Part shown: positions 1,014 to 20,309 of the stretch, in pieces
Layout: the number at the start of each line of letters is the position of its first letter
How positions within the stretch are numbered: position 1 is the stretch's first letter
Assembly (NCBI GenBank): GCA_016783105.1
Contig: JADHXF010000027.1
Location: 1-20,787, forward strand
Origin: Dehalococcoidales bacterium
GTDB lineage: Bacteria > Chloroflexota > Dehalococcoidia > Dehalococcoidales > RBG-16-60-22
Direction of reading: 5' to 3'
DNA length: 20,787 nucleotides
Notes under the pieces: model-generated
Databases searched by the model: none
The model's input: only the letters and a program-made list of their open reading frames with translations
What the model was told of the DNA's origin: nothing
Translations under genes and position numbers: made by a program

Positions 1014-1026
1014 TTCCTCAATATTA

Positions 1027-3874: not shown

Positions 3875-3888
3875 CTGAGCGCCATAAT

Positions 3889-4164: not shown

Positions 4165-4572
4165 ATGAGGGTTCAGATCTCCTCGCGGACGCTCCATAGT
4201 GACTTCGTCAAGAAAATAGCCGAAATCTCGGGGCAGGATCTTCTTGCCTGCAACCAGTGTGGCAAGTGCTCGGCTGGCTGCCCGATGTGCTTCGCCATGG
4301 ATTTACTGCCCAATCAGGTTATTCGACTGGCACAGCTGGGACTGGAAGAGGACATCGCTGCTTCAAAGACGGTCTGGCTCTGTGCCTCCTGCTTTACCTG
4401 TACCGTTCGTTGCCCTCGTGGGGTCGACCTGGGCAAGGTGATGGAGGCGATAAGGCTCATCACCCTGAGGAAGAATATCGACTACGTAGGGGCATCAGAT
4501 ATTCCGAAAAATACCGTTGGTGAACTTCCCCAGATAGCACTGGTTAGCAGTTTCCGCAAACACACTGCCTGA
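4165..4572 (+). CDS. hdrC: HdrC-like heterodisulfide reductase subunit C (copy 1)
   Basis: A soluble 135-residue 2x[4Fe-4S] electron-transfer subunit that feeds HdrB. Cluster motifs are CNQCGKCSAGCP (about 30-41) and CASCFTCTVRCP (about 73-84), separated by the HdrC hallmark stretch MDLLPNQVIRLAQLGLEE and followed by GVDLGKVMEAIR. N-terminal SDFVKKIAEISGQDLLACNQCGKC fits the family in register. The ATG at 4165 has only a weak GGA upstream and sits beside the AATGC/GCATT pairing, so initiation may be regulated or weak. It is the first gene of the operon; hdrB1 follows 8 nt after the stop. The physiological disulfide or other substrate is unknown; a non-methanogen need not use CoM-S-S-CoB. Confidence 0.9.
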   Translation: MRVQISSRTLHSDFVKKIAEISGQDLLACNQCGKCSAGCPMCFAMDLLPNQVIRLAQLGLEEDIAASKTVWLCASCFTCTVRCPRGVDLGKVMEAIRLITLRKNIDYVGASDIPKNTVGELPQIALVSSFRKHTA

Positions 4573-4580
4573 GGAGTGTT

Positions 4581-5459
4581 ATGGACCTGAGTTACTATCC
4601 GGGATGCACATTGAAGACCAAAGCAAAGGGCCTCGAGGACTCTGCTGTTGCCTGCATGGGTGCCCTGGGCATCAGGCTGGTCGAAATCGAGCGCTGGAAT
4701 TGCTGCGGCACCGTTTATTCCCTCGCCGAGGACGACCTGGCCCATCATCTGGCCCCGGTGCGCAACCTTATCCGCGTCAAAGAGCAGGGCAGCGACAGGG
4801 TCGGGACCCTGTGTTCTTTCTGTTACCATACGCTGAAGCGGGCGAATTTGCTGATGCGAAACGATGGTGAAAAAAGGAAGACCCTCAACGACTTCATGGA
4901 GGAAGAGGTTGATTACAATGGGGAGGTGGAAGTCGTCCATCTTCTCGAGGTGCTCCGGGATGAGGTCGGCTGGGAGAATATCGCGGCGAAAGTTAAGGTT
5001 CCGCTGCAGGGCTTGAAGGTGGCACCGTATTATGGCTGTACCCTGCTGCGACCCCAGGAAGTGGCTATCGACCAGGTGGAAAGGCCAACCATACTGCACC
5101 GGCTGCTGGAAACCATGGGTGCCGAGGCAGTGGATTTCCCCCACGCCACCGAATGCTGCGGCTCGTTCCAGATTGTGGGCAATCCTGATTTCATCACCCA
5201 GTGCGCCCGGGAGATATTGAGTTCAGCAGTGAGGCGGGGCGCCGAAGCCCTGGTCCTTACCTGCCCTCTCTGTCACTTTAACCTGAGTCAAAGACAGCCT
5301 GAGTTAATACAGAGATACAGCGATTTTCAGGGCCTGCCGGTCCTTTATTTCAGCCAGCTTCTGGCCATTTCCCTGGGAATTGACCCGGAGGTCTGTCACT
5401 TTGAATCAGGTGACAGTAATTTTCTCTCTCTCCTCAAGAGCAAAAAACTGGTCTCTTAA
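4581..5459 (+). CDS. hdrB: HdrB-like heterodisulfide reductase catalytic subunit B (copy 1)
   Basis: The catalytic HdrB subunit, which in methanogens holds two noncubane [4Fe-4S] clusters that split the heterodisulfide. The 292-residue product has two complete CCG domains. The first is C9-X31-C41C42G...C78SFC81. The second includes YYGCTLLRP (about 151), TECCGSF (about 190) and CPLCHFNL (about 232). Both cysteine sets are intact, so a catalytic rather than structural role is likely. The start ATG follows GAGGAG with good spacing, 8 nt after hdrC1. The C-terminus carries a short extension past LAISLGID. By homology the substrate could be a disulfide or other thiol-linked acceptor. Confidence 0.93.
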   Translation: MDLSYYPGCTLKTKAKGLEDSAVACMGALGIRLVEIERWNCCGTVYSLAEDDLAHHLAPVRNLIRVKEQGSDRVGTLCSFCYHTLKRANLLMRNDGEKRKTLNDFMEEEVDYNGEVEVVHLLEVLRDEVGWENIAAKVKVPLQGLKVAPYYGCTLLRPQEVAIDQVERPTILHRLLETMGAEAVDFPHATECCGSFQIVGNPDFITQCAREILSSAVRRGAEALVLTCPLCHFNLSQRQPELIQRYSDFQGLPVLYFSQLLAISLGIDPEVCHFESGDSNFLSLLKSKKLVS

Positions 5460-5477
5460 TTGCTATATGGAAAAGTA

Positions 5478-8400
5478 ATGGGAAAACTAGGGGTTTTTCT
5501 CTGTGGTTGTCGTTTCAGTCCTCTGGGTTCGGCTGAGGCGGAAGAGCTTTTGACGGCGGCTCACCGCCATCCAGATGTTGCCTATGCCGGGCTCCATCCC
5601 GACATGTGTCTCAAGCCAGAGCCGGAGAAGGTGGCCGGGGTGATGAAGGAAAACGGGCTGGAGGGAGTGGTTTTCACCAGCTGTACTTCATTACTGCATC
5701 GAGGCGCATTTGGGGAGCTGGCATCTGCGGCCGGTCTGGCGCCCAATCAGTTTGAAGTAGTTGATTTGCGTGAGCAGATAGATGGGAAGAAGGCTTCGGA
5801 AAGGATAGCCGGAGCGGTGGCTGAACTTTCCGCCAGATTGATTTCGCCGCCAGAACTTGAGGAGAAATTGCCGGTTACCAGAAAGGCGCTGATAATTGGC
5901 GGCGGGGTAGCCGGTATTCAGGCGGCTCTGGACATCGCCGACGCTGGTTATGAGGTTTTCCTGGTGGAGAGAAATCCCAGCATCGGCGGGCACATGATAC
6001 AGTACTCCGAGGTCTTTCCCACCCTGGACTGTCCGCAGTGCATCATGACCCCCAAGATGGTGGAGGTTGGCCAGCATCCCGATATCAGGCTTCTGACCTA
6101 CTCGGAAGTGGAGCAGGTCTCGGGTCAGATAGGCAACTTCACCGTTCGCATCAGAAGAAAAGCTTCCTACGTGGACTGGGAAAAGTGTACCGGGTGCGGA
6201 GACTGTGCCACGGCCTGTCCCGTAGAAGTATATAGCGAATATGAACGAGGTATCGCGGCACAAAAAGCAATTTACAAGCCCTTTGGCCAGGCGGTGCCCG
6301 CGGTCTTTACCGTGGAAAAGAAGGGAACCGCGCCGTGCCGGATTGCCTGCCCGGCCGGTGTAAACGCCCAGGGGTATATTGCCCTGATTTCCCAGGGCAA
6401 ATTCAAAGAAGCCCTGGCACTGGTACGCCAGACCATGCCCTTCGCCGGGGTAATCGGGCGCGTCTGCACTCACCATTGTGAGACGGAGTGTGAACGAAAG
6501 ACTATTGATGAGCCCATGTCCATTCGAACTCTCAAACGATTTATTGCCGATTACGAGCTAAAGGCGGGTAGAGAGAAGGCGGTTCCTTTTGAAAAGACGA
6601 GGAAGGAGAAGATAGCGGTTGTGGGCTCCGGGCCGGCAGGCCTGGCCTGTGCCTATGACCTGGTCAGGAAGGGATATCCGGTAACCGTATTTGAAGCCAT
6701 GCCGATGGTCGGTGGGCTGCTGCGCTACGGGATTCCGGAGTACCGGCTGCCGGAGAACGTACTTGATAATGAGATTGATTATATTAAAGAACTCGGCGTT
6801 GAAATCAGGACGGATAGCACAGTAAAAGAAACGAGTGCACTTTTAGAACAAGGATACAGGGCTGTTTTCCTGGGTACCGGGGCCTGGGTGAGTCAGAAGC
6901 TGGGCATTCCCGGCGAGGACGCGGCGGGAGTGATTCACGCCCTCGATTTTCTGAAGCGGGTCAATTCTGGAAATGAAGTCAGTCCGGGACGGCGGGTAGC
7001 CGTGATTGGTGGAGGTAATGCGGCGGTGGATGCCGCCAGAGCCGCCAGACGCCTTGGTGCTGATGAGGTGACCATTATATATCGGCGTTCCCGGGAGGAA
7101 ATGCCGGCCGTTGCCGGTGAGGTTGATGAGGCGGAAAAGGAGGGGGTAAAGCTCCACATCCTGGCCGCGCCGGTGAAGGTCCTGGGCCAGAACGGCAAAT
7201 TGACCGGCATCGAGTGCCTGCGAATGGAACTGGGTGAGCCCGATGCCAGTGGTCGCCGACGGCCGGTACCAATCAAGGGCTCGGAATTCGCCCTGGACGT
7301 GGATAATGTGATTGTCGCCATCGGGCAGTCGGTGGACAAAGCCGGACTACCTGGGGAACTTGACTACACTGAAAGAGGCACCATAGCTGCCGACCCGGTC
7401 ACGCTGGAGACAAATATGACCGGTGTTTTCGCTGGTGGGGATGTGGTCTCCGGGCCGGCTGATGTCATCGGGGCTATTGCTGCCGGCAAGGAGGCAGCGG
7501 AGAGCATCGACCGCTATTTGAACGGCGCCGACCTGCGTGAGGGAAGACCGAAACAGGTTAACAGGGTCGAAGAAGTCTCAAAGGAAGGCATACCACCGAA
7601 ACTGAGGGCAGCGATGCCGATGCTTGACCTGAAACAGAGAGAAGGCTCCTTTGCCGAGGTGGAACTTGGCCTTGATGAGGAGACGGCCATGGCCGAAGCC
7701 AGGCGCTGCCTGAACTGCGCCGGTTGCTGTGAGTGTCTCTCCTGTGAAGCAGCCTGCGAAAGAAAAGCAATCGACCACGAAATGGTTGACCGTTATGAGG
7801 AACTTGACGTTGGCGCCATCGTGGTTGCCACCGGGTTTGAACTAACTCCCAAAAAGGCAATCACTGAGTTTGAGCCGGACCCGGACATGCTGGACGGGAT
7901 ACAATTTGAAAGAATTCTCTGTCCTGGCGGTCCTACTGCCGGGGTGGTATTGAGGCCATCCGACGCGAAAACACCCAAAGAGGTCGTATTCATATCCTGC
8001 GTGGGCTCCCGCGACCCCGAGCACGGCGTTCCCTACTGTTCCAGCGTCTGTTGTATGTATTTAGCCAAACAGGCCATGCTCTACAAGCACGCTGTCCCCG
8101 ATGGTCAGGCGTATATTTTCTATATGGACACCCGAAGCACAGGGAAGGGCTACGAGGAGTTTGTGCAGAGAGCTGTGGAAGAGGACGGCGTATTATACCT
8201 GAGGGGAAGAGTGTCCAAGATATTCCGGGACGGAGACAAACTGAAAGTCTGGGGAGCTGACACCCTGACGGGGAAGAGAATCGAATTGTCCTGTGACCTG
8301 GTGGTACTGGGCATGGCCATGATACCCAATCCAGAAAGTAAAGAACTGATGCGGGTACTCGGTATAAACACCGATAGCCACGGGTTTATCAACGAAGTTC

Positions 8401-8573
8401 ACTATAAACTTCGTCCTCTGGAGACCTCTGTCCCCGGCATCTACGTTGCCGGAACGGCTCAGGGCCCCAGGGACATCCCCGATTCGGTGGCTCAGGGGAG
8501 CGGGGCTGCCAGCAAAGTACTTATTCTATTCTCCGCCAGCGAAAAGGTGCCGGAAAAGGTGGCAGCAAGTTGA
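5478..8573 (+). CDS. hdrA: HdrA with an inserted NADPH-dependent GltD/NfnB-like flavoprotein domain
   Basis: A 1031-residue fusion. Order: HdrA N-terminal domain (VFLCGC, 1 to about 130); FAD-binding thioredoxin-reductase-like half with IIGGGVAGIQAALD (about 139) and FPTLDCPQC (about 175); ferredoxin motif CTGCGDCATACP (about 237-248). Then an insertion of roughly 400 residues (about 285-685) that is a complete GltD/NfnB-type module: CRIACPAGVNAQGY and CTHHCETECER iron-sulfur region, VVGSGPAGLA FAD motif, and IGGGNAAVDAARAARR with YRRSREEMPA for NADPH. After the insert the HdrA resumes with CLNCAGCCECLSCEAAC (about 744-760) and CVGSRDPEHGVPYCSSVCC (CX12CX3CC, about 840). It lacks the C-terminal 2x[4Fe-4S] domain. 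The ATG at 5478 (GGAAAA upstream) is preferred to TTG 5460. Likely role: NADPH entry or exit and flavin-based bifurcation. Confidence 0.93.
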   Translation: MGKLGVFLCGCRFSPLGSAEAEELLTAAHRHPDVAYAGLHPDMCLKPEPEKVAGVMKENGLEGVVFTSCTSLLHRGAFGELASAAGLAPNQFEVVDLREQIDGKKASERIAGAVAELSARLISPPELEEKLPVTRKALIIGGGVAGIQAALDIADAGYEVFLVERNPSIGGHMIQYSEVFPTLDCPQCIMTPKMVEVGQHPDIRLLTYSEVEQVSGQIGNFTVRIRRKASYVDWEKCTGCGDCATACPVEVYSEYERGIAAQKAIYKPFGQAVPAVFTVEKKGTAPCRIACPAGVNAQGYIALISQGKFKEALALVRQTMPFAGVIGRVCTHHCETECERKTIDEPMSIRTLKRFIADYELKAGREKAVPFEKTRKEKIAVVGSGPAGLACAYDLVRKGYPVTVFEAMPMVGGLLRYGIPEYRLPENVLDNEIDYIKELGVEIRTDSTVKETSALLEQGYRAVFLGTGAWVSQKLGIPGEDAAGVIHALDFLKRVNSGNEVSPGRRVAVIGGGNAAVDAARAARRLGADEVTIIYRRSREEMPAVAGEVDEAEKEGVKLHILAAPVKVLGQNGKLTGIECLRMELGEPDASGRRRPVPIKGSEFALDVDNVIVAIGQSVDKAGLPGELDYTERGTIAADPVTLETNMTGVFAGGDVVSGPADVIGAIAAGKEAAESIDRYLNGADLREGRPKQVNRVEEVSKEGIPPKLRAAMPMLDLKQREGSFAEVELGLDEETAMAEARRCLNCAGCCECLSCEAACERKAIDHEMVDRYEELDVGAIVVATGFELTPKKAITEFEPDPDMLDGIQFERILCPGGPTAGVVLRPSDAKTPKEVVFISCVGSRDPEHGVPYCSSVCCMYLAKQAMLYKHAVPDGQAYIFYMDTRSTGKGYEEFVQRAVEEDGVLYLRGRVSKIFRDGDKLKVWGADTLTGKRIELSCDLVVLGMAMIPNPESKELMRVLGINTDSHGFINEVHYKLRPLETSVPGIYVAGTAQGPRDIPDSVAQGSGAASKVLILFSASEKVPEKVAAS

Positions 8574-10531
8574 AAAAGAGAAGAATCGGAGTTTTTGTCT
8601 GCCACTGTGGTATGAATATTGCGGGCTCGGTAGATGTGGAGCGGGTGGTGGAGCAGATACAGGGCTACCCCGGAGTGGAACACGCCGAGCACTATATCTA
8701 CATGTGCTCCGACCCGGGTCAGGAGCTGGTGCGGAAAGCAATCAAAGAGAAAGGCCTGGATGGTGTTGTCATGAGCAATTGCTCGCCTTCCCTGCACCAG
8801 AACACCTTCCGTAAACTGGCATCATCAGAAGGCATTAACCCCTACCACTGCGAGATAGCCAATATACGGGAGCAGTGCAGTTGGCCCCATAACGCTGATA
8901 AGGAGACGGCCACCAGAAAAGCGGTGGCCATCATTGAATCGGTAATCGAAAAGCTGCGTCGCAACATATCATTAACGCCTTTGGTAGTGCCGCTGACCAA
9001 GAGGGTAATGGTTATAGGGGCCGGGGTAGCGGGGATGCAGGCGGCCCTGGACATCGCCGATAGCGGCTATGAGGTTGTGCTGGTGGAGAGAAGCCCAAGC
9101 ATCGGCGGGCATGCCACGCAGTTATCAGGAACGTTTCCCATTGCCGGTCGCGTTCCCTGCATGGTTTCACCTCTGATGTCAAAGGTGGCTTCACATCCCA
9201 ATATAAGGCTTTATGCCTACTCGGAAGTGGAAGATATCTCCGGCTATGTGGGCAATTTTAAAGTAAGCGTCAAAAAGAAAGCCACCAGTGTTGCAGAAGA
9301 GAAGTGCGACTACTGTGGACTCTGTCTGGGAAGCTGTCCGGTTGCCGTTCCTTCTGAATTTGACCGTGGTCTCTCGCAACGTGGTGCCATCTACGCTCCT
9401 TTTCCAGAGGCATTGCCGCAGCGACCGGTGATAGACCAGGACAACTGCAGGCATTTCAACGGCGACCAGTGTCATGCCTGCCAGGACGTCTGCCCCAATG
9501 GGGCTATCGATTTCCAGCAGAAGGATAAAGCAATCGAGGAAGAGGTTGGCGCCGTCATTGTGGCTACCGGGTATGAGCTTTTCCCTTGCAGTGGTCTCGC
9601 TGAATATGCCACTGACCCGGATATAATCGATGGGCTGCAGTTCGAAAGGCTGCTTTCACCTTCGGGGCCAACATCGGGGGAGGTCAGGAGACCGTCCGAC
9701 GGGAAGAAACCCGAGCAGGTGGTTTTCGTTCAGTGCGCCGGGTCGCGTGACCCGGAACACGGGGTATCTTATTGCTCCCGGGTATGCTGCATGTACGCGG
9801 CGAAACAGGCACTGCTTTACAAGCAGGCCGTTCCGAACGGCCAGGCATATATTTTCTACATGGACATTCGCTCCGATGCCAAGGGCTACGAAGAATTCGT
9901 CAAGGAAGTGGTGGATGAGGAGAGGGTGCTCTATTTACGGGGCAGGGTTTCCAGGATATTCCGGGACGGGGATAAACTTAAAGTCTGGGGCGCGGATACC
10001 CTGACCGGGAAGAGCATTGAGATTTCCGCCGACCTGGTGGTTCTGGCCACGGCCATGGTGCCCAGCCCGGGGGTGAAGGAGCTGGCAAGGAAGCTCAATA
10101 TCATCACCGACCAGCATGGCTTCATCACCGAAGCGCACATCAAGCTCAGGCCGGTGGAGACGCTCACTTCCGGAATTTACCTGGCGGGGACGGCACAGTG
10201 GCCAAGAGACCTGCCCGATACCGTCGCCTCGGCGAGCGGTGCGGCGAGTAAAATCCTCTCTCTCTTTTCCCGTAAAGAACTGCTCCACGAGCCGACGGTG
10301 GCCTTCGCGGACGAAGAAGTATGCCGCGGCTGCGGCCAGTGTGTTTCCATATGTGCTTTTCAGGCAATCGAGCTTGACCCGGTGAAAAAGGTGGCCAGGG
10401 TCAATGAAGCGATATGTGTTGGCTGCGGTGCCTGTGCGGCCACATGCCCTTCCAAGGCGATGCAGCACAAGAACTGGACGGCCCGGCAGTTCTTTGAGGT
10501 AATTGATATCGCTACGGCGGAATATGCATAA
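8570..10531 (+). CDS. hdrA: HdrA, flavin-based electron-bifurcating subunit (conventional form)
   Basis: A 653-residue HdrA of standard length and order: N-terminal domain (VFVCHCG at 8-14), FAD-binding half (VIGAGVAGMQAALD near 148), inserted ferredoxin domain (CDYCGLCLGSCP near 245; CHACQDVCP near 301), CX12CX3CC (CAGSRDPEHGVSYCSRVCC near 389), and a C-terminal 2x[4Fe-4S] domain (CRGCGQCVSIC and CVGCGACAATCP, about 585-625). The segment that reads FPTLDCPQC in its neighbour is FPIAGRVPCMVSP here, so one of the two usual cysteines is missing. It starts with TTG in TTGA, overlapping the stop of the previous gene by 4 nt, with AGGTGG 8 nt upstream. It is the best candidate for the bifurcating flavin site of the complex. 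Confidence 0.95.
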   Translation: MKKRRIGVFVCHCGMNIAGSVDVERVVEQIQGYPGVEHAEHYIYMCSDPGQELVRKAIKEKGLDGVVMSNCSPSLHQNTFRKLASSEGINPYHCEIANIREQCSWPHNADKETATRKAVAIIESVIEKLRRNISLTPLVVPLTKRVMVIGAGVAGMQAALDIADSGYEVVLVERSPSIGGHATQLSGTFPIAGRVPCMVSPLMSKVASHPNIRLYAYSEVEDISGYVGNFKVSVKKKATSVAEEKCDYCGLCLGSCPVAVPSEFDRGLSQRGAIYAPFPEALPQRPVIDQDNCRHFNGDQCHACQDVCPNGAIDFQQKDKAIEEEVGAVIVATGYELFPCSGLAEYATDPDIIDGLQFERLLSPSGPTSGEVRRPSDGKKPEQVVFVQCAGSRDPEHGVSYCSRVCCMYAAKQALLYKQAVPNGQAYIFYMDIRSDAKGYEEFVKEVVDEERVLYLRGRVSRIFRDGDKLKVWGADTLTGKSIEISADLVVLATAMVPSPGVKELARKLNIITDQHGFITEAHIKLRPVETLTSGIYLAGTAQWPRDLPDTVASASGAASKILSLFSRKELLHEPTVAFADEEVCRGCGQCVSICAFQAIELDPVKKVARVNEAICVGCGACAATCPSKAMQHKNWTARQFFEVIDIATAEYA

Positions 10532-10540
10532 GATGGGGAA

Positions 10541-13500
10541 ATGACCAAGTCAGAAGCAGTTTTAGTTATCGGCGCCGGGGTGGCGGGAATAAAAACCTCG
10601 CTGGAGATGGCGGAGGCGGGGCACAGGGTATATCTCTGCGAGCGGAAGCCGAGCATCGGGGGCGCACTCATCCAGATGGACAAATGGTTTCCGGATAACC
10701 ACTGCAGCCTGTGCCAGATGCTCCCTACGCTCAACAGAGATAAATCTGACCAGTTCTGCCTGCGGCGCGGGCTGAATCACCCGAACATCGAATTGCTATA
10801 CAATACGGAGGTCACGGAACTGCAGGGACAGGCGGGCGATTTCAGGGTAACGTTGGGTACCAGGAGCACCGGCGTTGATTCTCAACTATGCATTGGCTGT
10901 GGGCTCTGCACCGAGGTCTGTCCAATAGAGGTGGAGAGTCAGTTTGATGAAGGGCTGGGTCGGCGCAAGGCCATTGATGTGCCCAATCCATACGCTACAC
11001 CTCTCACGTATGCCATAGACTGGGAGAAGTGCACCCGGTGCGGGGACTGCGTAAAGAAATGCCCAACCGGGGCTATACAGCTTGAACAGATAGAAAGCAA
11101 GAGGCAGATTCAGGTGGGTGCCATTATTCTATCGACCGGCTTCGAGGAGTTTGACCCGCGTCTGGCCACGCAGTACGGCTACCGGCGCTATCCCAACGTA
11201 ATAACCAGCATTGGACTGGAAAGAATACTCAGTCCCGGTGGGCCTTCCTATGGTGAGCTGATTCGCCCCTCGGACAGCAGACCACCGGCGTCAATCGCCT
11301 TCCTGCAGTGCATCGGCTCGCGGGACAGCCGGAGGGATTACTGCTCCTCGGCGTGCTGCATGTTTGCCATCAAGGAAGCCACGCTCATCAAACAGAAGTG
11401 GCCGCAGACGGATGCCCAAATCTTTTTCATGGATATGAGGGCATTCGGCAAGGGGTATCATCGGTACTATGAACATGCCAGAGATGAGCTCGGCGTGCAA
11501 TTCACCCGCTGCCGTGTCCCGGTGGTAAAAGAAGACCCCCGCAACCATGACCTCCTGCTTACTGTAACCTCTGAAGAGGGATTACCGGTCAGGCGTCAGT
11601 TTGAAATGGTCGTACTGTCGGTGGGCCAGACGCCGGCACCGGAATTCAATGAGCTCTGTCAGGCCCTGGGCGTGGAAACGAACCGTTGGGGTTTCTGTCA
11701 GACGCGACCTTTCTCAAAGGTGGAGACATTACAGGAAGGGATATACGTATGTGGCAGCGCGGGCGGCCCCAAGGACATCGCTGATACCATGGTCGAAGCG
11801 GGTGCCGCCGCTGGCGAGGCGGCCAAATGGCTCTCCCCACCAGCCACCCGTCCGGTAAAAAAGGAACCGGTGGAAAAACCGACGAGTGAGGAAGCACCGA
11901 AGACCGCCGTTTTCCTGTGCGGCTGCGGTGGTGAAATTGCCCCGTTGCTCGACCTTGAGTCGGTGGCCGAATACGTTGGGAAGTTGCCTGGCGTCGTTCA
12001 CGTTGAGACTATGCCTTATCTCTGCCGCAGTGAGGCTTTCGAGGCGGTGGGCAAAGGGGTAAAGGAGCACAAGGGCAACCGCCTGGTGCTTGGGGCGTGC
12101 ACATATATCAGCGGGCAAATGCTTGATGAATTAACCGGCAAAGTCAGGCTTGACCCGGCCCTGGTCCGTGTGGTGAATCTCAGGGAAGAGGTTATCTGGG
12201 TACACCGTGACCAGTCGGCAAATGCGCTGGCCAAGGCGAAAAGCATGCTGGCCATGGCCGTGGAAGGCGTCAGGCAGCAGGAATTCCGGCCCACCTCACC
12301 GATAGCGGTGACACCCGATGCTGTGGTCATCGGCGGCGGCATGGCCGGTATGGCGGCGGCGCTGTCCATCGCCCGGCATGAAATCGAAGTTAATCTTGTC
12401 GAAAAATTATCGGAACCTGGTGGCAACCTGAAGGATATATATTCTACCCTGGAAAGCGGCGACACGCAGGCATTGCTCAGGGACACCGTAGAGCAGGTGC
12501 GAAAAAGTCCCCGTATTCATCTGCATATGGAGTCTGAGGTGGTGGAGGCGAGCGGTTACGCCGGCAATTTCAGGGTCGGTATCAGGGGGAAAGACGAGTC
12601 CATCAACACGGTGGCGGCTGGTGCCATAGTTGTCGCTACCGGTGGTGAAGAATACCATCCTGCCGAGTACTTGTATGGACAAAATGAAAAGGTGCTCACG
12701 CAGCCTGAACTGGAAAAGCGACTGTTTGCCGGCGAGCTTGACCCCGGCGGGTTGAGGTCGGTGGTTATGGTACAATGCGTTGGCTCCAGGGAAAAAGACC
12801 GACCCTACTGCAGTCGCGTCTGCTGCTCGCAGGCATTGAAGAACGCGTTAAAATTGAAAGAACTAAACCCCGGCATTGAGGTGAACGTTCTCTACAGGGA
12901 CATGATGAGCTACGGTTTTAGAGAGGAGCATTATACCCGGGCGCGGGAAAAAGGGGTGCGGTTTATCCGCTACGAGCTGGACAGTAAGCCAGAGGTAAAA
13001 CAGGATGGAGAAAGGCTAACTGTCGAAATCATCGATTCGGCGCTGGGTGGAACGTTAAGGCTTGAACCCGATCTTCTGGTACTGAGCACGGGCGTCATCC
13101 CCAATGATAACCGCGCTCTGGCTGATATTTTAGCCGTGGAACTGGACGAAGATGGGTTTTTCCAGGAGGCGGAGGAAAAATTCCGCCCGGTGGATTTTGT
13201 CAAAGATGGCATCTATGTCTGCGGGCTGGCCCATTCGCCGCGTGGTGTCGAGGAGACGATAGCCCAGGCCCGGGCGGCGGCGCGGAGGGCGGTATCGCTG
13301 CTGACCTCGAAACAGCTGAAAGCCGGAAGGGCTATTTCTGAGACGGTGCAGCGGCAGTGCCGCAAATGCGAGATGTGTATCAGCGTCTGCCCCTATGGCG
13401 CCCGGGCTATGGATGAGGAAACCGATGAAATTGTGGTGCGGGAGGCGCTGTGCCAGGGCTGTGGAGCCTGCGTGGTAGCCTGCCCCAGCGGTGCCGCAAA

Positions 13501-13558
13501 AATCAGGGGTTTCAGGGACAGGCAGGTATTTTCGTTAATAGATGCCGCTTTTCCGTGA
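10541..13558 (+). CDS. Double HdrA (two HdrA modules in one polypeptide)
   Basis: A 1005-residue tandem HdrA. Module 1 (about 1-433) starts directly at the FAD motif VIGAGVAGIKTSLE, without the usual N-terminal domain. It has FPDNHCSLC, two ferredoxin motifs (CIGCGLCTEVCP, CTRCGDCVKKCP) and CX10CX3CC (CIGSRDSRRDYCSSACC). A Pro/Lys/Glu-rich linker (about 434-455) joins it to module 2, which has the N-terminal domain (VFLCGCGG), a second FAD motif (VIGGGMAGMAAALS near 596), no inserted ferredoxin, a CX10CX3CC motif, and a C-terminal 2x[4Fe-4S] domain (CRKCEMCISVCP, CQGCGACVVACP). Fused HdrA pairs of this kind are known as BamE in class II benzoyl-CoA reductase complexes, but no BamB/BamC-like catalytic subunit is in this window. 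ATG 10541 follows GGGGAA, 9 nt after the previous stop. Confidence 0.92.
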   Translation: MTKSEAVLVIGAGVAGIKTSLEMAEAGHRVYLCERKPSIGGALIQMDKWFPDNHCSLCQMLPTLNRDKSDQFCLRRGLNHPNIELLYNTEVTELQGQAGDFRVTLGTRSTGVDSQLCIGCGLCTEVCPIEVESQFDEGLGRRKAIDVPNPYATPLTYAIDWEKCTRCGDCVKKCPTGAIQLEQIESKRQIQVGAIILSTGFEEFDPRLATQYGYRRYPNVITSIGLERILSPGGPSYGELIRPSDSRPPASIAFLQCIGSRDSRRDYCSSACCMFAIKEATLIKQKWPQTDAQIFFMDMRAFGKGYHRYYEHARDELGVQFTRCRVPVVKEDPRNHDLLLTVTSEEGLPVRRQFEMVVLSVGQTPAPEFNELCQALGVETNRWGFCQTRPFSKVETLQEGIYVCGSAGGPKDIADTMVEAGAAAGEAAKWLSPPATRPVKKEPVEKPTSEEAPKTAVFLCGCGGEIAPLLDLESVAEYVGKLPGVVHVETMPYLCRSEAFEAVGKGVKEHKGNRLVLGACTYISGQMLDELTGKVRLDPALVRVVNLREEVIWVHRDQSANALAKAKSMLAMAVEGVRQQEFRPTSPIAVTPDAVVIGGGMAGMAAALSIARHEIEVNLVEKLSEPGGNLKDIYSTLESGDTQALLRDTVEQVRKSPRIHLHMESEVVEASGYAGNFRVGIRGKDESINTVAAGAIVVATGGEEYHPAEYLYGQNEKVLTQPELEKRLFAGELDPGGLRSVVMVQCVGSREKDRPYCSRVCCSQALKNALKLKELNPGIEVNVLYRDMMSYGFREEHYTRAREKGVRFIRYELDSKPEVKQDGERLTVEIIDSALGGTLRLEPDLLVLSTGVIPNDNRALADILAVELDEDGFFQEAEEKFRPVDFVKDGIYVCGLAHSPRGVEETIAQARAAARRAVSLLTSKQLKAGRAISETVQRQCRKCEMCISVCPYGARAMDEETDEIVVREALCQGCGACVVACPSGAAKIRGFRDRQVFSLIDAAFP

Positions 13559-13573
13559 CAAGGAGGTAACAAA

Positions 13574-14005
13574 GTGGCCGAGGAAAAAGAGTTTGAACCA
13601 GTAATTGTTGGCTTCTTCTGTAACTGGTGTACGGCTACCGCCGCCGACCTCGCCGGCACACTCAGGATGCAGTACCCGGCCAATATCCGCCCCATAAGGA
13701 CCATGTGCAGCGGGTCGGTGGACCCGGTCTACGTTTTGAGAGCGCTGCTCGGTGGCGCTGACGGCGTGATTGTGGGAGGGTGTACTCCCGGCGATTGCCA
13801 CTATGTCTCCGGGAATTACAAAGCGAGAAGAAGAATGGCCATACTGAAGACGGTGCTGAGTACTCTCGGCCTTGAAGACGACAGGGTCTGGGTAAAATGG
13901 ATAAGCGCCGCGGAAGGCGCCAAGTTTGCCCGCACCATGAATGAAGTTACCGAAGCGGTCAAAAAACTGGGGCCAAACCCGATGAGCAAAGACTGGTCTA
14001 TATAG
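13574..14005 (+). CDS. mvhD: MvhD-like [2Fe-2S] adaptor protein
   Basis: A 143-residue MvhD/FlpD-family protein, the [2Fe-2S] adaptor that passes electrons from a hydrogenase, formate dehydrogenase or NAD(P)H module to HdrA. Visible cysteines are FFCNWCTATAADLAG (16 and 19), RTMCSGSVDP and GGCTPGDCHY, matching the family pattern. CNWCTATA replaces the commoner CNWCSYAGAD-type sequence. Length is typical. It starts with GTG behind a strong AGGAGG (13561-13566), 15 nt after the double HdrA, and is followed after 8 nt by the FdhB-like gene. That placement suggests MvhD bridges the FdhB-like protein to one of the HdrA modules. Confidence 0.95.
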   Translation: MAEEKEFEPVIVGFFCNWCTATAADLAGTLRMQYPANIRPIRTMCSGSVDPVYVLRALLGGADGVIVGGCTPGDCHYVSGNYKARRRMAILKTVLSTLGLEDDRVWVKWISAAEGAKFARTMNEVTEAVKKLGPNPMSKDWSI

Positions 14006-14013
14006 GGATGAGT

Positions 14014-15135
14014 ATGGAGAAATACGCGATTTTGCCAACCGGGAAAGATGGTGTGCTTGCGGCAATTCGTCAGTTTCTGGCCAGCCTGCTGGAGAAGAAA
14101 CTGGTCGATGCGCTGCTGGTGCCGCTGGAACTGCCCACCGGGGATAACGTGGTGCCGACCATTGTGAGCCGACCGGAGCAGATTAATGCCGCCAATCCAC
14201 TGGCCCCGGTGATGCCGGTGAACGCCGCCCGCCTCGTCTCCAGAATCACCATGGTATCACCCAGTCCCGACCGGCTGGGCGTGGTGCTGCGTCCCTGCGA
14301 GCTCAGGGCGCTGGTCGAACTGGTCAAGCTAAAGCAGGCCTCGCTGGAAAACCTGCTTCTGATCAGCATTGACTGCTACGGTACCTACCCGGTTGACGAC
14401 TATGGAAAATTCGCCAGGGAAAGCTCATCACCGACCGAGGATTTTTTGAAGCGGGTTCGGGATGGCAAGGATGACCCACTGCTGCGCAAGGCCTGCCAGA
14501 CCTGTGAATACCCGGTGCCCATGGGCGCTGACCTTACTATTGGTCTTTTCGGGGACAGCATTGAGAAAGGTATTGTACTGGTGGCCGGAACTCCGGAAGG
14601 GGAGAGAGCGATTCAGGAGCTGGGCCTTGAGGAGGTAAAAGCAGAGGGGAGAGATTCAACCATAGCAAAGCTCATTGCAGAAAGGGCAGAGAAGAGAGAA
14701 AAGCTGCTGCCACAAACCCAGGAAGAAATCAGAGGGCTGGACAAACTGATGGCCACTCTGGCCACCTGCATCAACTGCCATAACTGCAAGACGGTATGCC
14801 CGCTCTGCTACTGCAAGGAATGTTTCTTCGACTCCCCGGTCTTCGAATTTGAGGCCGAAAAGTATCTGGGCTGGGCGAAGCGAAAGGGCGCCCTCCGCAT
14901 GCCCAACGATACCCTTCTCTTCCATCTGACCCGACTCAATCACATGGTGATTTCCTGCGTCGGCTGTGGGCTGTGCACGGAAGCCTGCCCGAACGATATT
15001 CCGGTATCAGATATCTTCCGCCTGGTGGGACATCAGGTGCAGAAGACATTCGATTACGTGCCGGGAAGAAATCTGGATGAAGAACTGCCCCTGACCACGT
15101 TCAAAGAAGAAGAGTTGCCAGATATAGGGATGTAA
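14014..15135 (+). CDS. FdhB/FrhB-like flavin iron-sulfur protein (coenzyme F420 hydrogenase/dehydrogenase beta family)
   Basis: A 373-residue soluble flavoprotein of the FrhB/FdhB family. The N-terminal two thirds has the family domain, including LVDALLVPLE, GVVLRPCELRALVELVKL and LLLISIDCYGTYP. The C-terminal part has cysteine-rich ferredoxin motifs CINCHNCKTVCPLCYCKEC (about 252-270) and CVGCGLCTEACP (about 316-327). Known relatives exchange hydride with F420, formate dehydrogenase or NAD(P)H partners; the electron donor here cannot be read from sequence. Two in-frame ATGs exist: 14008 directly abuts AGGG, whereas 14014 stands 6 nt after it, so 14014 is preferred. Beside mvhD it likely forms an alternative electron-input arm of the Hdr complex. 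Confidence 0.88.
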   Translation: MEKYAILPTGKDGVLAAIRQFLASLLEKKLVDALLVPLELPTGDNVVPTIVSRPEQINAANPLAPVMPVNAARLVSRITMVSPSPDRLGVVLRPCELRALVELVKLKQASLENLLLISIDCYGTYPVDDYGKFARESSSPTEDFLKRVRDGKDDPLLRKACQTCEYPVPMGADLTIGLFGDSIEKGIVLVAGTPEGERAIQELGLEEVKAEGRDSTIAKLIAERAEKREKLLPQTQEEIRGLDKLMATLATCINCHNCKTVCPLCYCKECFFDSPVFEFEAEKYLGWAKRKGALRMPNDTLLFHLTRLNHMVISCVGCGLCTEACPNDIPVSDIFRLVGHQVQKTFDYVPGRNLDEELPLTTFKEEELPDIGM

Positions 15136-15139
15136 CCGT

Positions 15140-15694
15140 ATGCAATACATTAATAAGGAAGGCACATTGACCGTTGATGCGCGCTTTGGCGAGCAGGTGA
15201 AGGAAGAAAGCGGCGCTGAAATCGACCGCTGTTACCAGTGTCTCACCTGCAGCCTGGGCTGTCCGTCGGCCTTTGCTATGGACTACCTTCCCCACCAGAT
15301 TATCCGCATGGTGCAGCTGGGCCTGCGGGAGCAGGTATTGACCAGTTCCACCATCTGGGTCTGCGCTGACTGCCAGGCCTGCGCCACCCGGTGTCCAAAT
15401 GAGGTTGACCTGGTGAAGATAATGGATGTCCTGCGTGAGATTTCACTACGGGAAGGACTGGCCAAAGAGCGCGCTGTGGCCGATTTTCACCGCATTTTTC
15501 TGGGAAACATTGAACGGTGGGGAAGGCAGCACGAACTATCGTTGATTCTCAGGCTCAAACTCAAGACGAGGGACCTCTTCAGCGATTTATTACCGGGGAT
15601 GAAAATGATGATGAAGGGCAAATTGAAGTTGCTCCCGGCGCGCTTTAAGGCAATACAGAGCGTGAGAGATATTTTTCAGAGAGCGGAAAAATGA
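15140..15694 (+). CDS. hdrC: HdrC-like heterodisulfide reductase subunit C (copy 2)
   Basis: A 184-residue HdrC paralogue, longer than copy 1. Cluster motifs are CYQCLTCSLGCP (about 32-43) and CADCQACATRCP (about 75-86), with the intervening FAMDYLPHQIIRMVQLGLRE hallmark in family register. A C-terminal region of about 85 residues rich in Arg/Lys (KMMMKGKLKLLPARF) extends past the ferredoxin core and has no membrane segment. ATG 15140 lies 4 nt after the previous stop. Its stop overlaps the hdrB2 ATG (ATGA, 15691-15694), indicating coupled translation of the BC pair. Confidence 0.92.
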   Translation: MQYINKEGTLTVDARFGEQVKEESGAEIDRCYQCLTCSLGCPSAFAMDYLPHQIIRMVQLGLREQVLTSSTIWVCADCQACATRCPNEVDLVKIMDVLREISLREGLAKERAVADFHRIFLGNIERWGRQHELSLILRLKLKTRDLFSDLLPGMKMMMKGKLKLLPARFKAIQSVRDIFQRAEK

Positions 15695-16566
15695 GTCAGC
15701 CGAAAGCAACAGGCTTAAAATATGCCTATTATCCCGGCTGCTCCCTGGAGGCGACGGCCCGGGAGTATGACATGTCGGTGCGCGCGGTCTGCGCCCATCT
15801 CGGCATTGAGCTGTCCGAGCTTCCCGACTGGAGCTGCTGCGGGGCGTCATCCGGGCACAGCACCAGTCGGCGGCTGGCCTGTACCCTCGCCGGACGTAAT
15901 CTCGCCCTGGCCGAGGGGATGGATATGGATATTGCCGTTGCCTGTCCGGCCTGTTATATCCGGCTGAGAAAGGCGCATAATGAGCTTAAGAACGATGAGA
16001 ACCTGAGGGAAGAGCTCAGCAGCGTGATGAAGGTTCCCTATCGGGCCGAATATGGCACCAGGCATCTCCTGGACATCATCTGCCATGAAGTCGGTCTGGA
16101 TAACTTGAAGAACAAAGTGGTGAAACCGCTAAAAGGGCTGAAACTTGTGGCTTATTACGGTTGCTACCTTGTCCGCCCTCCCGAAATTGTGGCTTTCGAT
16201 GACCCGGAAAACCCGCAATGCCTGGATGCTCTGCTCGATACCCTGGGCGCCGAGGTCAGGGACTGGTCGGGCAAGGTGGACTGCTGCGGCGGCAGCCTGT
16301 CCTTGAGCAAGCGGGAGATGGCCAGGCAGATGGTCGGTGGACTCACCGAGATGGCGCGGTGGGCTGGTGCCGAGGCGATAGTTGCCGCCTGTCCATTATG
16401 CCATGCTAACCTGGAAATGCGGCAGACCGGCGCAGATAGCGCTAAACTGCCTGTCTTCTATTTTACCGAGCTTATCGGCCTTGCCCTGGGCATAACTGAA
16501 GCCAGGGGCTGGCTGAAAAGGCATCTGGTTTCACCTTCTGGCCTGTTGGCCTCTCATGGGTTATAA
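15691..16566 (+). CDS. hdrB: HdrB-like heterodisulfide reductase catalytic subunit B (copy 2)
   Basis: A 291-residue HdrB with both CCG domains intact: C17-X31-C49C50G...C85PAC88, then YYGCYLVRP (about 152), VDCCGGSLSL (about 193) and CPLCHANLEMRQ (about 233). It is clearly paralogous to the copy at 4581-5459 but diverged, so the operon carries two distinct catalytic HdrBC pairs rather than a recent duplication. It lies just before the fumarate-reductase-like iron-sulfur gene. In methanogen TfrB an SdhB-like part and an HdrB-like part are one protein, so HdrB2 may be the detached equivalent. Confidence 0.93.
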   Translation: MSQPKATGLKYAYYPGCSLEATAREYDMSVRAVCAHLGIELSELPDWSCCGASSGHSTSRRLACTLAGRNLALAEGMDMDIAVACPACYIRLRKAHNELKNDENLREELSSVMKVPYRAEYGTRHLLDIICHEVGLDNLKNKVVKPLKGLKLVAYYGCYLVRPPEIVAFDDPENPQCLDALLDTLGAEVRDWSGKVDCCGGSLSLSKREMARQMVGGLTEMARWAGAEAIVAACPLCHANLEMRQTGADSAKLPVFYFTELIGLALGITEARGWLKRHLVSPSGLLASHGL

Positions 16567-16582
16567 TCGAACGGAGGTTACT

Positions 16583-17356
16583 ATGGCGGAAAAAGAGCGT
16601 AAAGTGACCGGCAGGGAAAAGCCTGCTGAAACAGAGAAGGTAAACCTCATCCCGGTTTATGTGATGGGGAAAAGGTACCTGGTGCCGGAAACGCTCACCA
16701 TCATGAAGGCGCTGGAGTACGCTGGCTACCAGTTTATTCGCGGGTGCGGCTGCCGCGGCGGCATCTGTGGTGCCTGCGCCACTGTCTATCGTAAGCCGGG
16801 AGACTACCACATTCGGGTTGGGCTGGCCTGCCAGACGGTCGTTGAGCCGGACATGTACCTTGCGCAGATACCGTTTTACCCGGCGAACCGGGCCAGCTAC
16901 GACTTTGAGCAGCTCACCGGTAATCCCGAGGAAATCTTCAAGCTGTATCCCGAGGTTTTCCGCTGCATCGCCTGCAACAGCTGCACCAAGGCCTGCCCGA
17001 TGGACGTTCAGGTGATGGACGTGATATCGGCGGTGAAGCAGGGCAACATTGAGCGGGCAGCCACTCTATCCTTCAACTGCATCCAGTGCGGCCTCTGTGT
17101 CAGCCGGTGCATGGGGGAACTACCTCAATATCACATTATGCAGTTGGCGCGGAGGATTTACGGGAGCCGGATTGCGCCGAGGGCAGAGCACCTGAACGAG
17201 GCGATTGAGGCAGTGAAGGGTGAAAAATGCCAGCAGACGCTGGAAAAGCTGATGGAGTCCGATATCAAGCACCTCAGAGAAATATATCAATCCCGGGAAA
17301 TCGAGCCGGAAATGGCAGATGAGGACTGGACACCGGCGAAGCGTGATTATCTCTAG
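16583..17356 (+). CDS. Fumarate reductase/succinate dehydrogenase-like iron-sulfur subunit (TfrB N-terminal-like)
   Basis: A 257-residue SdhB/FrdB-type electron-transfer protein. The N-terminal plant-type [2Fe-2S] domain has CGCRGGICGAC...LACQT (about 53-84). The helical second domain has CIACNSCTKACP and CIQCGLCVSRC, implying two [4Fe-4S] clusters, whereas classical SdhB has one [4Fe-4S] and one [3Fe-4S]. There is no membrane anchor gene nearby, so the enzyme should be soluble. ATG 16583 follows GGAGG (16573-16577) with ideal spacing; the upstream ATG at 16556 lies inside hdrB2 and has no such site. The flavoprotein gene follows after 9 nt. This subunit probably links the flavoprotein to HdrC2/HdrB2. 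Confidence 0.88.
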   Translation: MAEKERKVTGREKPAETEKVNLIPVYVMGKRYLVPETLTIMKALEYAGYQFIRGCGCRGGICGACATVYRKPGDYHIRVGLACQTVVEPDMYLAQIPFYPANRASYDFEQLTGNPEEIFKLYPEVFRCIACNSCTKACPMDVQVMDVISAVKQGNIERAATLSFNCIQCGLCVSRCMGELPQYHIMQLARRIYGSRIAPRAEHLNEAIEAVKGEKCQQTLEKLMESDIKHLREIYQSREIEPEMADEDWTPAKRDYL

Positions 17357-17365
17357 GAGGAGAAA

Positions 17366-19030
17366 ATGCCATATACGGAAGAGCTTAGAAACCTCATCAA
17401 AATAGTGGAGAAAACCAGGCCGGAGCGGCTGGCGCGGAAAAAGAGGGGAGAGGAATTCCCCAGAATGTCGCTGGATGAATCCGAGGTGATACTTCAGAAG
17501 TATCACCCCGATTACATAGAAGAAGGGCGGCGGGAGCTGAAGGTGGGGCCGAGCAAGGGCTACCGGATTGCCCACGAGTTTGCCGACCTGCTGGAGGCGT
17601 GGAGTCGACTGGAGCCGGACCAAACCGACCTCTCGCGCAAGGATATTGAAACGGATGTGCTGATAATAGGTGGCGGTGGTGCCGGAACCGCGGCGGCCTT
17701 GCTTGCCGAGCAGAACGGTGCCAAGGTTATAGTGGCTACCAAACTGCGCCACGGTGATGCCAACACCATGATGGCCGAAGGCGGCATTCAGGCGGCCACC
17801 AAGATAGAGAAAGACTCGGCCTGCATGCATTATCTTGACACGCTGGGTGGCGGCCACTTCAAGAATGAGCCGGAACTGGTTCGCACCCTGGTTACCCAGG
17901 CACCAGAAATACTCAGGTGGCTGGAAGGCCTTGGGGTGATGTTCTCCAAATTTCCCGATGGGAGGCTGCATACCCTGCTTGGTGGGGGGACCAGTCGAAA
18001 GCGGATGCATTCCTGCGGGGACATAACGGGCGCCGAGATAATGCGCGACATTCGTGATGAAGCCCGCAACCGGGAGAATATCACTGTCCTGGAGTTTTCA
18101 CCGGCCATCGAGCTGGTGCTGAATGAACACGGCCACTGCGCCGGCGCCGTACTTTACAATCTGGAAACCGAAGAATACCTGATAGTCAAGGCCAAGGCGA
18201 TCATTCTTGCCACCGGCGGCTGCGGTCGGCTGCATATCCATGGGTTCATGACCACCAATCACTATGGGGCCACGGCCGATGGCATCGTCCTGGGCTACCG
18301 GGCCGGCCTGAAGCTCAAGTTATTGCATACCGTCCAGTACCATCCCACCGGTGTCGTCTTTCCCGAGCAGGTTGAAGGCATTCTCATCACGGAAAAATTC
18401 CGCGGGGCGGGGGCTAATATCTTGAACATCGATGGAGAGCAATTCGTCTTCGAGCGCGAGCCGAGGGACGTGGAATCAGCGGCTATAATCAGGGAGTGTC
18501 TGGAAAGGAGAAAGGGCGTTCCCACGCCCACCGGAAAACTGGGCGTATGGCTCGATTCGCCCATGATCGATACACTGATGGGCGAGGGCGCGGTGGAGAG
18601 GGAATTTCCGGGTAAATTTATCGTTTATAAGCGGTTTGGCATTGATATCGCCAAAGAGCCGATGCTGGTCTACCCCACCCTCCACTATCAGAACGGCGGA
18701 CTGGAATACAATGCACGGGGGGAGACCTCCATACCCGGCCTTTTCATCGCCGGGGAGGTCAGTGGCGGCGTGCACGGCGAAAACCGCCTAATAGGCAATT
18801 CCCTGCTCGATGTCCTCGTCTTCGGACGGATTTCCGGGGAGAACGCGGCGGACTATGCTAAGGATAAAGCCAGAGATGGCAGGCTGTCACTGGAGCATGT
18901 TAAGGATTATCACCGGGAATTGGAAAAGTCAGGTGTTGTCACCGACCGGGTGACCCCGATACTTCTCCCTGACTACGCCAATCCCGAGGTCCGGGAAAGG
19001 CAACTCACCGCCCGCCACGTCGGGAAATAA
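17366..19030 (+). CDS. Fumarate reductase/succinate dehydrogenase-like flavoprotein subunit (TfrA-like)
   Basis: A 554-residue FAD-binding flavoprotein. It has an unusual charged N-terminal extension of about 95 residues, then the dinucleotide motif VLIIGGGGAGTAAALL (about 98), MAEGGIQAA (about 136), ILATGGCGRL, and the dicarboxylate-site set: YHPTG (about 326), ITEKFRGAG, HYQNGG and GENRLIGNSLLD. These correspond to the catalytic His/Arg positions of fumarate reductases, so fumarate or succinate is a reasonable substrate. The residue that is the FAD-linking His in SdhA/FrdA (SHT-AAQGG) is Asn here (ANTMMAEGG), which predicts non-covalent FAD. A strong AGGAGGAG precedes the ATG. It is the last gene of the operon. 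Aspartate-oxidase-like or other dicarboxylate/enoate reductase activity is an alternative. Confidence 0.85.
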   Translation: MPYTEELRNLIKIVEKTRPERLARKKRGEEFPRMSLDESEVILQKYHPDYIEEGRRELKVGPSKGYRIAHEFADLLEAWSRLEPDQTDLSRKDIETDVLIIGGGGAGTAAALLAEQNGAKVIVATKLRHGDANTMMAEGGIQAATKIEKDSACMHYLDTLGGGHFKNEPELVRTLVTQAPEILRWLEGLGVMFSKFPDGRLHTLLGGGTSRKRMHSCGDITGAEIMRDIRDEARNRENITVLEFSPAIELVLNEHGHCAGAVLYNLETEEYLIVKAKAIILATGGCGRLHIHGFMTTNHYGATADGIVLGYRAGLKLKLLHTVQYHPTGVVFPEQVEGILITEKFRGAGANILNIDGEQFVFEREPRDVESAAIIRECLERRKGVPTPTGKLGVWLDSPMIDTLMGEGAVEREFPGKFIVYKRFGIDIAKEPMLVYPTLHYQNGGLEYNARGETSIPGLFIAGEVSGGVHGENRLIGNSLLDVLVFGRISGENAADYAKDKARDGRLSLEHVKDYHRELEKSGVVTDRVTPILLPDYANPEVRERQLTARHVGK

Positions 19031-20303: not shown

Positions 20304-20309
20304 GTGAAT

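Follow-up and report, generated by a model that had tools for sequence, protein, structure and literature searches.

Gene content and protein families of the operon

The window analysed here, the whole 20,787-nucleotide stretch of contig JADHXF010000027.1 from a Dehalococcoidales bacterium, contains an operon that joins HdrA-based electron-transfer genes to a fumarate-reductase-like end. Between positions 4165 and 19030, eleven open reading frames (ORFs) lie end to end on the plus strand without internal stops. The first two encode an HdrC-like protein with two [4Fe-4S] motifs (C1, 4165..4572; PF13183) and an HdrB-like protein with both CCG (non-cubane cluster) motifs intact (B1, 4581..5459; two PF02754 stretches, motif scan and tree). 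These are followed by a type III HdrA (A1, 5460..8573), a full-length type I HdrA (A2, 8570..10531), a double, type II HdrA (AA, 10541..13558), an MvhD/FlpD [2Fe-2S] adaptor (D, 13574..14005; PF02662, 176 bits) and an FdhB/ElpB/FrhB-like flavo-iron-sulfur protein (F, 14008..15135; PF04432). A second HdrC-like protein (C2, 15140..15694; family scan) and a second HdrB-like protein, again with both CCG motifs intact (B2, 15691..16566; family scan, motif scan and tree), precede an iron-sulfur subunit (sB, 16556..17356) and a flavoprotein of the SdhA/FrdA/TfrA superfamily (sA, 17366..19030). From C1 to sA, the distances from stop to next start are 8, 0, -4, 9, 15, 2, 4, -4, -11 and 9 nucleotides (nt). 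An earlier note on this DNA had described a codirectional eleven-gene composition, which the ORF and family scans confirmed (Fer4 HdrC twice, HdrB with two CCG stretches twice, FlpD for MvhD, FrhB_FdhB_C with Fer4, a Fer2 plus Fer4 pair, and FAD_binding_2). The 4-nt overlaps it gave at A1/A2 and C2/B2 were borne out by the gap measurement, which added an 11-nt overlap at B2/sB.

The window HdrA proteins were aligned to 5odc_A and 8rvu_a. The flavin-proximal cysteine motif (C-GSR...C--xCC) is kept in all four of their flavin adenine dinucleotide (FAD)/Fe-S modules (A1, A2 and two in AA), and this cysteine set occurs together with HdrC, MvhD and HdrB with two CCG motifs, the composition of an HdrA-based flavin-bifurcating complex. 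In A1, a GltD/NfnB-like FAD-NAD(P) domain is inserted in the HdrA ferredoxin domain, the arrangement of type III HdrA, and the C-terminal ferredoxin is missing. The insert (residues 285-787) scores 554 bits (cut-off 516) against NCBIfam PRK12771, an NAD(P)-binding GltD-like subfamily, and falls below the glutamate synthase equivalog model gltA (393 of 472 bits). A2 has the N-domain, the equivalent of Cys197 of 5odc_A and a C-terminal ferredoxin; the second cluster motif of its inserted ferredoxin has altered spacing. The Cys197 equivalent is also kept in A1 and the first half of AA and missing from the second half of AA, and the N-domain is present in A1 and the second half of AA and absent from its first half. 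The second AA half has the C-terminal ferredoxin and lacks the inserted one. Because Cys197 and the N-domain sit on opposite halves, AA could furnish its own dimer contact, judging from these residues; complementary HdrA halves are described in section 15 of PMC9012536 (papers are cited here and below for the passages concerned). As a side observation, several of the HdrA homologs in G004, G005, G034, G111, G125, G156 and G200 were matched across one or two in-frame TGA codons, which are perhaps selenocysteine.

The flavoprotein sA, aligned to 1nek_A and 7d6v_A, belongs to the fumarate reductase/succinate dehydrogenase superfamily by its FAD_binding_2 fold and motifs. The motifs HPT, TE..R, RD, H-Y and NR, which we take to be the active-site (dicarboxylate) motifs of this superfamily, are kept in 36 of 36 complete rows. 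Asparagine occupies the position of the covalent-FAD histidine of E. coli SdhA in all 36 rows covering the sites, and in two truncated rows as well, which suggests a noncovalent FAD. According to PMC9557727, homologs that bind FAD noncovalently are fumarate reducers without succinate-oxidising activity. The best-scoring model was TfrA (341.5 bits, cut-off 718); sdhA_frdA (289 bits) and nadB (281.4 of 452.75 bits) were both below cut-off. The earlier note had called sA and sB an SdhAB-like pair, and for sB this description did not hold: SdhB likeness is weak (26-31 bits), and two four-Cys cubane motifs, beside one [2Fe-2S] motif, stand in place of the [3Fe-4S] site. These cluster ligands are invariant in 18 of 18 aligned sequences, and the NCBIfam TfrB cut-off was missed by far (21.5 of 385 bits). 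The predicted structure of sB was of low quality (predicted local distance difference test score 56, pTM 0.33) and plays no part in this reading. Neither TfrAB nor L-aspartate oxidase NadB is therefore reached by the cut-offs. Canonical complex II (succinate dehydrogenase or quinol:fumarate reductase) is likewise not what is encoded, given the asparagine, the four-Cys motif and the search for Sdh cytochrome b (PF01127), found in 0 of 16 related genomes, where a control search matched 7 of 14 known genomes. A broad protein search with sA, covering the best 120 of 8000 scored relatives, served for breadth and names only. Each of the 16 genomes also holds a further sA homolog at 34-40% identity (in G003 it is the only one, the operon contig being cut), and in 4 of 4 genomes tested these second homologs score above the nadB cut-off. 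The role of aspartate oxidase was rejected for sA because a separate nadB is present in those four genomes.

Two parts of the operon are candidates for hydride entry. In the window, the GltD insert has GGGNAA as its second Rossmann motif, and the pattern GxGxxA is found at this place in 13 of 14 GltD rows, the fourteenth lacking the region. By the criterion of PMC12054007 (GxGxxG for NAD, GxGxxA for NADP) the sequence motif of A1 is NADP-type. In L007 and L015, where A1 has no GltD domain, a NuoF-like and a NuoG-like gene immediately precede it, which looks like an exchange of one NAD(P)H module for another; NuoF homologs in L106 and L113 stand away from any A1, which argues against a strict swap. 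The single-chain model of F (predicted local distance difference test score 84) has the FdhB/ElpB fold: Foldseek returned ElpB 8rvu_E (template-modelling score 0.73) and FdhB 7bkb_E (0.74), then FrhB and Fsr. In the Elp-Hdr complex, ElpB takes F420H2 and electrons pass via an MvhD homolog toward HdrA, MvhD being a [2Fe-2S] adaptor in the solved complexes (PMC12350162). The two hydride-entry proteins counted in the earlier note are better taken as the GltD domain and the FdhB-like protein, and MvhD is an adaptor.

The 15 carrier genomes of relatives, which are incomplete metagenome-assembled genomes (MAGs), give no sign that the hosts make coenzyme F420: CofE was found in none, and the CofD family, which also matches in E. 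coli, in two (G010 and G014). With no CofE in any of these incomplete MAGs and no CofD in 13 of the 15, F420 was provisionally rejected as donor in these bacteria, which may yet scavenge it. NAD(P)H or ferredoxin are our guesses for the donor of F. Matches to the NiFe-hydrogenase large subunit occur in 13 of 16 genomes, 11 of them above cut-off, so H2 may also enter through D.

Conservation, modularity and neighbourhood

Four other contigs of the class, L002 and L005 from the F-anchored scan and L098 and L099 from the sA scan, each carry all eleven genes in unchanged order, and such an order of eleven genes is far beyond chance. Gene order in related genomes was the check proposed in the earlier note; the order is kept in these close relatives, and the loss of order that it had named as evidence to the contrary did not occur. 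The F-anchored scan comprised 67 loci (29 bacterial and 38 archaeal), many of them cut by contig ends, and the sA search covered 294 genomes of the class of G002. A1 is without GltD in L098 and without the N-domain in L005, and L004 holds all eleven genes, the first and the last truncated at the contig ends. The closest relative, a Dehalococcoidia MAG (L001), retains eight genes (A2 partial) at 85-94% identity; this locus, like L003, L006 and L008, is truncated by the contig and agrees with the window order. Because the L007 contig starts inside the NuoF-like gene, C1-B1 may be present beyond its edge. L015 reads C1-B1-NuoF-NuoG-A1-A2-D-F-sB-sA, with AA and C2-B2 missing.

Other loci carry the same genes in altered sets. 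KSB1 (L014) has A1-A2-AA-D-F-C2-B2, two other ORFs and then sB-sA, and Planctomycetota (L017) an A1-like gene followed by A2-AA-D-F-C2-B2-sB-sA; C1-B1 was not found on either locus. Reshuffled versions occur in Aerophobetes (L011) and at Anaerolineae-type loci (L012, L021-L025, L027, L062 and L067). Among the latter, L021-L025, L027 and L062 show a tandem FdhB-like pair, an HdrC/HdrD-like protein of about 380 amino acids, sB after MvhD and, where seen, a displaced sA. In the F-anchored scan, sB and/or sA lie on 21 of 29 bacterial loci and on none of the 38 archaeal ones. The pair was not seen on L009, L010, L013, L016, L018, L026, L028 and L063, some of which reach a contig end; L009, L016 and L063 carry AA-D-F-C2-B2 without it. 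Loci of the anaerobic methanotrophic archaea ANME-1 typically read D-F-C2-B2 and then a divergent double HdrA, and Hdr clusters with FdhB only are described for ANME-1 in PMC9012536.

The sA search gave 41 matches at E <= 1e-60, of which 30 have 54-86% identity and the other 11 no more than 42%. Seven of the 30 are HdrA-linked (G002, G006, G007, G008, G034, G100 and G013, the last being L015), and another seven (L100-L106) form C1-B1-sB-sA clusters without adjoining HdrA. Ten (L107-L116) are sB-sA pairs without window-like Hdr genes, L108 having another CCG protein two genes upstream. G211 starts its contig with B1-sB-sA; the remaining matches are short loci only (G302, G239 and G237), a locus cut at the contig start (G129) and a fragment (G187). 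In the sA tree, the C1-B1-sB-sA rows are nested within the HdrA-linked rows, and the starred branches force two changes, which would most simply be two losses of the HdrA core. This tree was rooted at its midpoint and left out the truncated rows L004 and L015; L017 is a long branch, and the label "full" used in the tree means an HdrA core beside sB-sA and includes L001, L006, L007, L008, L014 and L017, with C1-B1 off the contig. The HdrB tree places the HdrB of L100-L106 in the B1 clade (100/100) and not with B2; unlike the two changes of the sA tree, it would allow the seven four-gene rows to form one group (61/92), and it carries a long-branch warning for L063, L029 and L011. We read these clusters as natural deletions in which loss of the HdrA core lets the outer C1-B1 and sB-sA close up, and on this reading sB-sA probably has C1-B1 as its direct partner. 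HdrA homologs are encoded elsewhere in all six C1-B1-sB-sA genomes searched (G111, G200, G168, G125, G147 and G156), so HdrA may still serve in trans.

The genes around the smaller clusters point to fumarate. C1-B1-sB-sA in L100, L102, L105 and L106 and sB-sA in L107, L112 and L114 lie between fumarase alpha (PF05681) and beta (PF05683), which is the case in 7 of 8 loci of these kinds with scanned flanks. The eighth, L108, has fumarase beta downstream and no alpha among its three upstream genes, which encode LUD, CCG and succinyl-CoA-ligase-like proteins. Two more genes separate sA from fumarase beta in L107, L108 and L114; in L108, one of them has no family assignment and the other is acyl-CoA dehydrogenase-like. 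L105, L107 and L114 also have malate dehydrogenase or malic enzyme nearby, the HdrA-linked operon of L007 is followed by fumarase beta, and fumarase alpha occurs somewhere in 14 of 16 carrier genomes, including G005. Two further neighbourhoods were recorded: L108:8544-11645, upstream of sB-sA, with succinyl-CoA-ligase-like, CCG and LUD-Fer4 proteins, and L102:7680-11495 on the minus strand, near C1-B1-sB-sA, with lactate racemase LarA, an Fer4-FlpD fusion and an FAD-linked oxidase, a set that may represent an FlpD-linked lactate dehydrogenase.

In the window, a 2-oxoacid:ferredoxin oxidoreductase (Kor) is encoded divergently on the minus strand, with KorA (alpha subunit, 2545..3690), KorB (1721..2548) and KorG (POR gamma, 1162..1764); a small ferredoxin-like ORF with eight cysteines lies upstream of KorA (within 3650-3889, minus strand). 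The divergence of KorA from C1 is kept in the closest clade, in G001 (96%), G005 (88%) and G002 (88% over 129 residues at the contig end). G005 has the order korABG-sucC-sucD-smpB, where sucC-sucD is succinyl-CoA synthetase, and in the window smpB follows korABG without sucCD. The operon's composition, motifs, conservation and neighbourhoods are all directly seen in these genomes.

The rest of the window holds a tmRNA gene (174-526, minus strand; tag GEPEVVYAA) adjoining smpB (558-1043, minus strand). This tmRNA was the only Rfam match in the window at gathering thresholds, with no riboswitch upstream of the operon. Downstream of sA, at 19041-20047, a thiamine pyrophosphate (TPP) enzyme homolog breaks off at about 19757, directly beside a fragment that matches the archaeo-eukaryotic primase (AEP) domain of TOTE systems. 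The TPP part is 84% identical to residues 331-568 of a 568-amino-acid L005 protein in the same downstream position, and the junction is either a rearrangement or an assembly join. At 20304-20787 there is a small antitoxin-like ORF without Pfam match, overlapped by an incomplete frame that reads by eye as PemK/MazF-type.

Proposed function and competing explanations

We read the operon, with somewhat better than even confidence, as encoding a soluble, HdrA-based, NAD(P)H-fed, flavin-based electron-bifurcating fumarate reductase. The electron path, its direction, the bifurcation, the stoichiometry and complex formation are proposed from sequence, as follows. NAD(P)H would enter at the GltD domain of A1, and a second donor would probably enter at F and pass through D, as in Fdh-Hdr and Elp-Hdr. 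At the HdrA flavins the electrons would be split. The favourable branch would run through HdrC/HdrB (C1-B1) and the Fe-S chain of sB to the noncovalent FAD of sA, reducing fumarate to succinate, and the unfavourable branch would reduce ferredoxin (Fd). The minimal reaction would be 2 NAD(P)H + fumarate + Fd(ox) -> 2 NAD(P)+ + succinate + Fd(red). Kor, which is divergently encoded, would spend the reduced ferredoxin in a reductive branch of the tricarboxylic acid cycle (fumarate to succinate, succinyl-CoA and 2-oxoglutarate), and it can also run oxidatively. Ferredoxin potentials lie near -420 to -500 mV. PMC5861303 gives +33 mV for the fumarate/succinate couple and -320 mV for NAD(P)H. With these values one ferredoxin pair per fumarate is downhill, and at standard potentials confurcation in the opposite direction is uphill.

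Several observations weigh against this reading. Both sA and sB score under every specific Sdh, Frd, Tfr and NadB cut-off, and G002 has, in addition, a TfrA-like flavoprotein that is not NadB (L124, 601.6 of 718 bits). GltD-less A1 genes without NuoF-like neighbours occur in L098 and, outside the class, in L010, L017 and L018, and the four-gene clusters L100-L106 amount to a reductase without an adjoining HdrA core. The scanned neighbours of the operon itself are not fumarase in the window, L005, L098 and L099; upstream of the operon in G034 and G100 stand other genes than Kor (carboxyl transferase; NAD kinase), and fumarase alpha was not found in these two genomes. Finally, the related HdrABC-MvhD-MetFV complex of Moorella was not shown to bifurcate, according to a passage of PMC8578096.

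How many particles the operon encodes is a separate question. HdrA, MvhD-like and FdhB-like subunits physically assemble in solved structures (PMC12350162), and all eleven proteins might build one cytoplasmic supercomplex, with an A1-A2 heterodimer and an AA pseudo-dimer, two sets of bifurcating flavins and ferredoxin reduced at two sites per fumarate, without quinone or membrane. We consider this unlikely; if true, the supercomplex would be a soluble substitute for fumarate respiration, paid for by the drop from NAD(P)H to fumarate. A stronger contender, if short of an even chance, is that two or three separate enzymes are made from one transcript and linked by diffusible carriers (ferredoxin or thiol/disulfide): an HdrC1B1-sB-sA fumarate reductase, thiol- or Fe-S-linked, an NAD(P)H-HdrA unit (A1-A2) and AA-D-F-C2-B2. 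This arrangement shares its function with the bifurcating fumarate reductase and differs in the particles, so the confidences given to the two do not add up. It fits the occurrence of AA-D-F-C2-B2 without sB-sA, in ANME-1 with divergent HdrA, and the four-gene clusters nested in the HdrA-linked rows of the sA tree. Both window HdrB proteins also have two complete CCG motifs, so thiol/disulfide chemistry as in TfrB is possible. The long conserved order and the tiny gaps speak against it, as do L011 and L015, which reshuffle or drop parts yet keep the rest together. The earlier note had proposed that the genes probably build one enzyme system, suggestive of a very large soluble bifurcating complex. 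Gene order, fumarase flanks and the physical assembly known for HdrA, MvhD-like and FdhB-like subunits sustain a co-inherited HdrA-based system that ends in fumarate-reductase-like proteins and probably has a bifurcating core; given the modularity of the operon, the single giant complex finds partial support.

The direction and the substrate were also weighed. A complex running in reverse would be a confurcating succinate dehydrogenase, passing Kor-made reduced ferredoxin and electrons from succinate to NAD(P)H. The stoichiometry with Kor suits it as well as the forward direction, and fumarase in L105 has as neighbours malate dehydrogenase and genes of the biotin-carboxylase type (PYC_OADA, carboxyl transferase), as in a methylmalonyl-CoA route. 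It is nonetheless rather improbable, as the covalent-flavin histidine is missing from all 36 sA rows, noncovalent relatives do not oxidise succinate (PMC9557727) and the mean donor potential lies above that of NAD(P)H. A substrate other than fumarate (e.g., aspartate- or urocanate-like) would agree with the closeness of the nadB (281 bits) and sdhA_frdA (289 bits) scores of sA, both under cut-off, and with the acyl-CoA dehydrogenase-like gene between sA and fumarase beta in L108. Since fumarase halves flank the genes in seven relatives' loci, nadB is separate in 4 of 4 genomes and the dicarboxylate motifs are kept, we regard such a substrate as very improbable.

Dehalococcoidia are widespread in anoxic sediments, and their uncultured members must somehow supply CO2-fixing steps with low-potential electrons. 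If the bifurcating fumarate reductase is real, it would link fumarate reduction to electron-splitting proteins known chiefly from methanogens, and a strongly exergonic step that normally belongs to membrane quinol enzymes would provide the neighbouring 2-oxoglutarate synthase with reduced ferredoxin. The operon would also be a concrete bacterial case in which type II and III HdrA carry an FdhB-like arm in genomes with no F420 genes found, so that the substrate of the arm can be tested.

Comparison with known systems

Type I, II and III HdrA, FdhB-MvhD arms and Hdr-TfrAB-Kor clustering are already published (PMC9012536, PMC12054007, PMC12350162, PMC6315080 and PMC11636981). The eleven-gene composition was not found described in the open-licence PMC literature, a search that left subscription papers and supplements outside; passages of the Chloroflexi papers PMC3971608, PMC11650866 and PMC5736913 mention hdr genes and not this operon, and an SdhA gene beside HdrA2B2C2 is noted for Culexarchaeia in PMC9723716. 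Like the ANME type II and III HdrA (PMC9012536 and PMC12054007), the window proteins include a double HdrA, a GltD/NfnB insertion and complementary Cys197/N-domain halves. However, in AA the Cys197 half without N-domain comes first, the reverse of the HdrA3/4 order in PMC9012536, and the GltD motif is GxGxxA as opposed to the GxGxxG of archaeal type III in PMC12054007. The FdhB-like and MvhD-like donor arm on HdrA is shared with Elp-Hdr and Fdh-Hdr of methanogens (PMC12350162), whose donor is F420H2; the window operon has no FdhA/ElpA gene, and CofE was found in none of the 15 carrier genomes. HdrABC-MvhD-MetVF of Moorella and the marine Chloroflexi DscP3 (PMC5736913) likewise ties HdrABC-MvhD to a soluble oxidoreductase, also in Chloroflexi, but with MetVF where the window has sB-sA. 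TfrAB and class E/MFR SdhABE also combine a flavoprotein, an Fe-S protein and an HdrB-like CCG protein; here, in contrast, HdrC and HdrB are separate genes, sB has two four-Cys cubane motifs and the family cut-offs are missed.

In tubeworm symbionts and Thioflavicoccus, korABCD-tfrAB is interspersed with flxABCD-hdrABC, and direct electron delivery has been proposed for that cluster (PMC6315080 and PMC11636981). As in the window, an HdrABC bifurcating module is combined there with a soluble fumarate reductase and a 2-oxoglutarate:ferredoxin oxidoreductase. Compared by the published description, the symbiont cluster has FlxABCD and a TfrAB homolog, whereas the window combines HdrA of types I, II and III with MvhD, two HdrBC sets and an FdhB-like protein; its sA falls in a clade under the TfrA cut-off, and its sB lacks a CCG domain.

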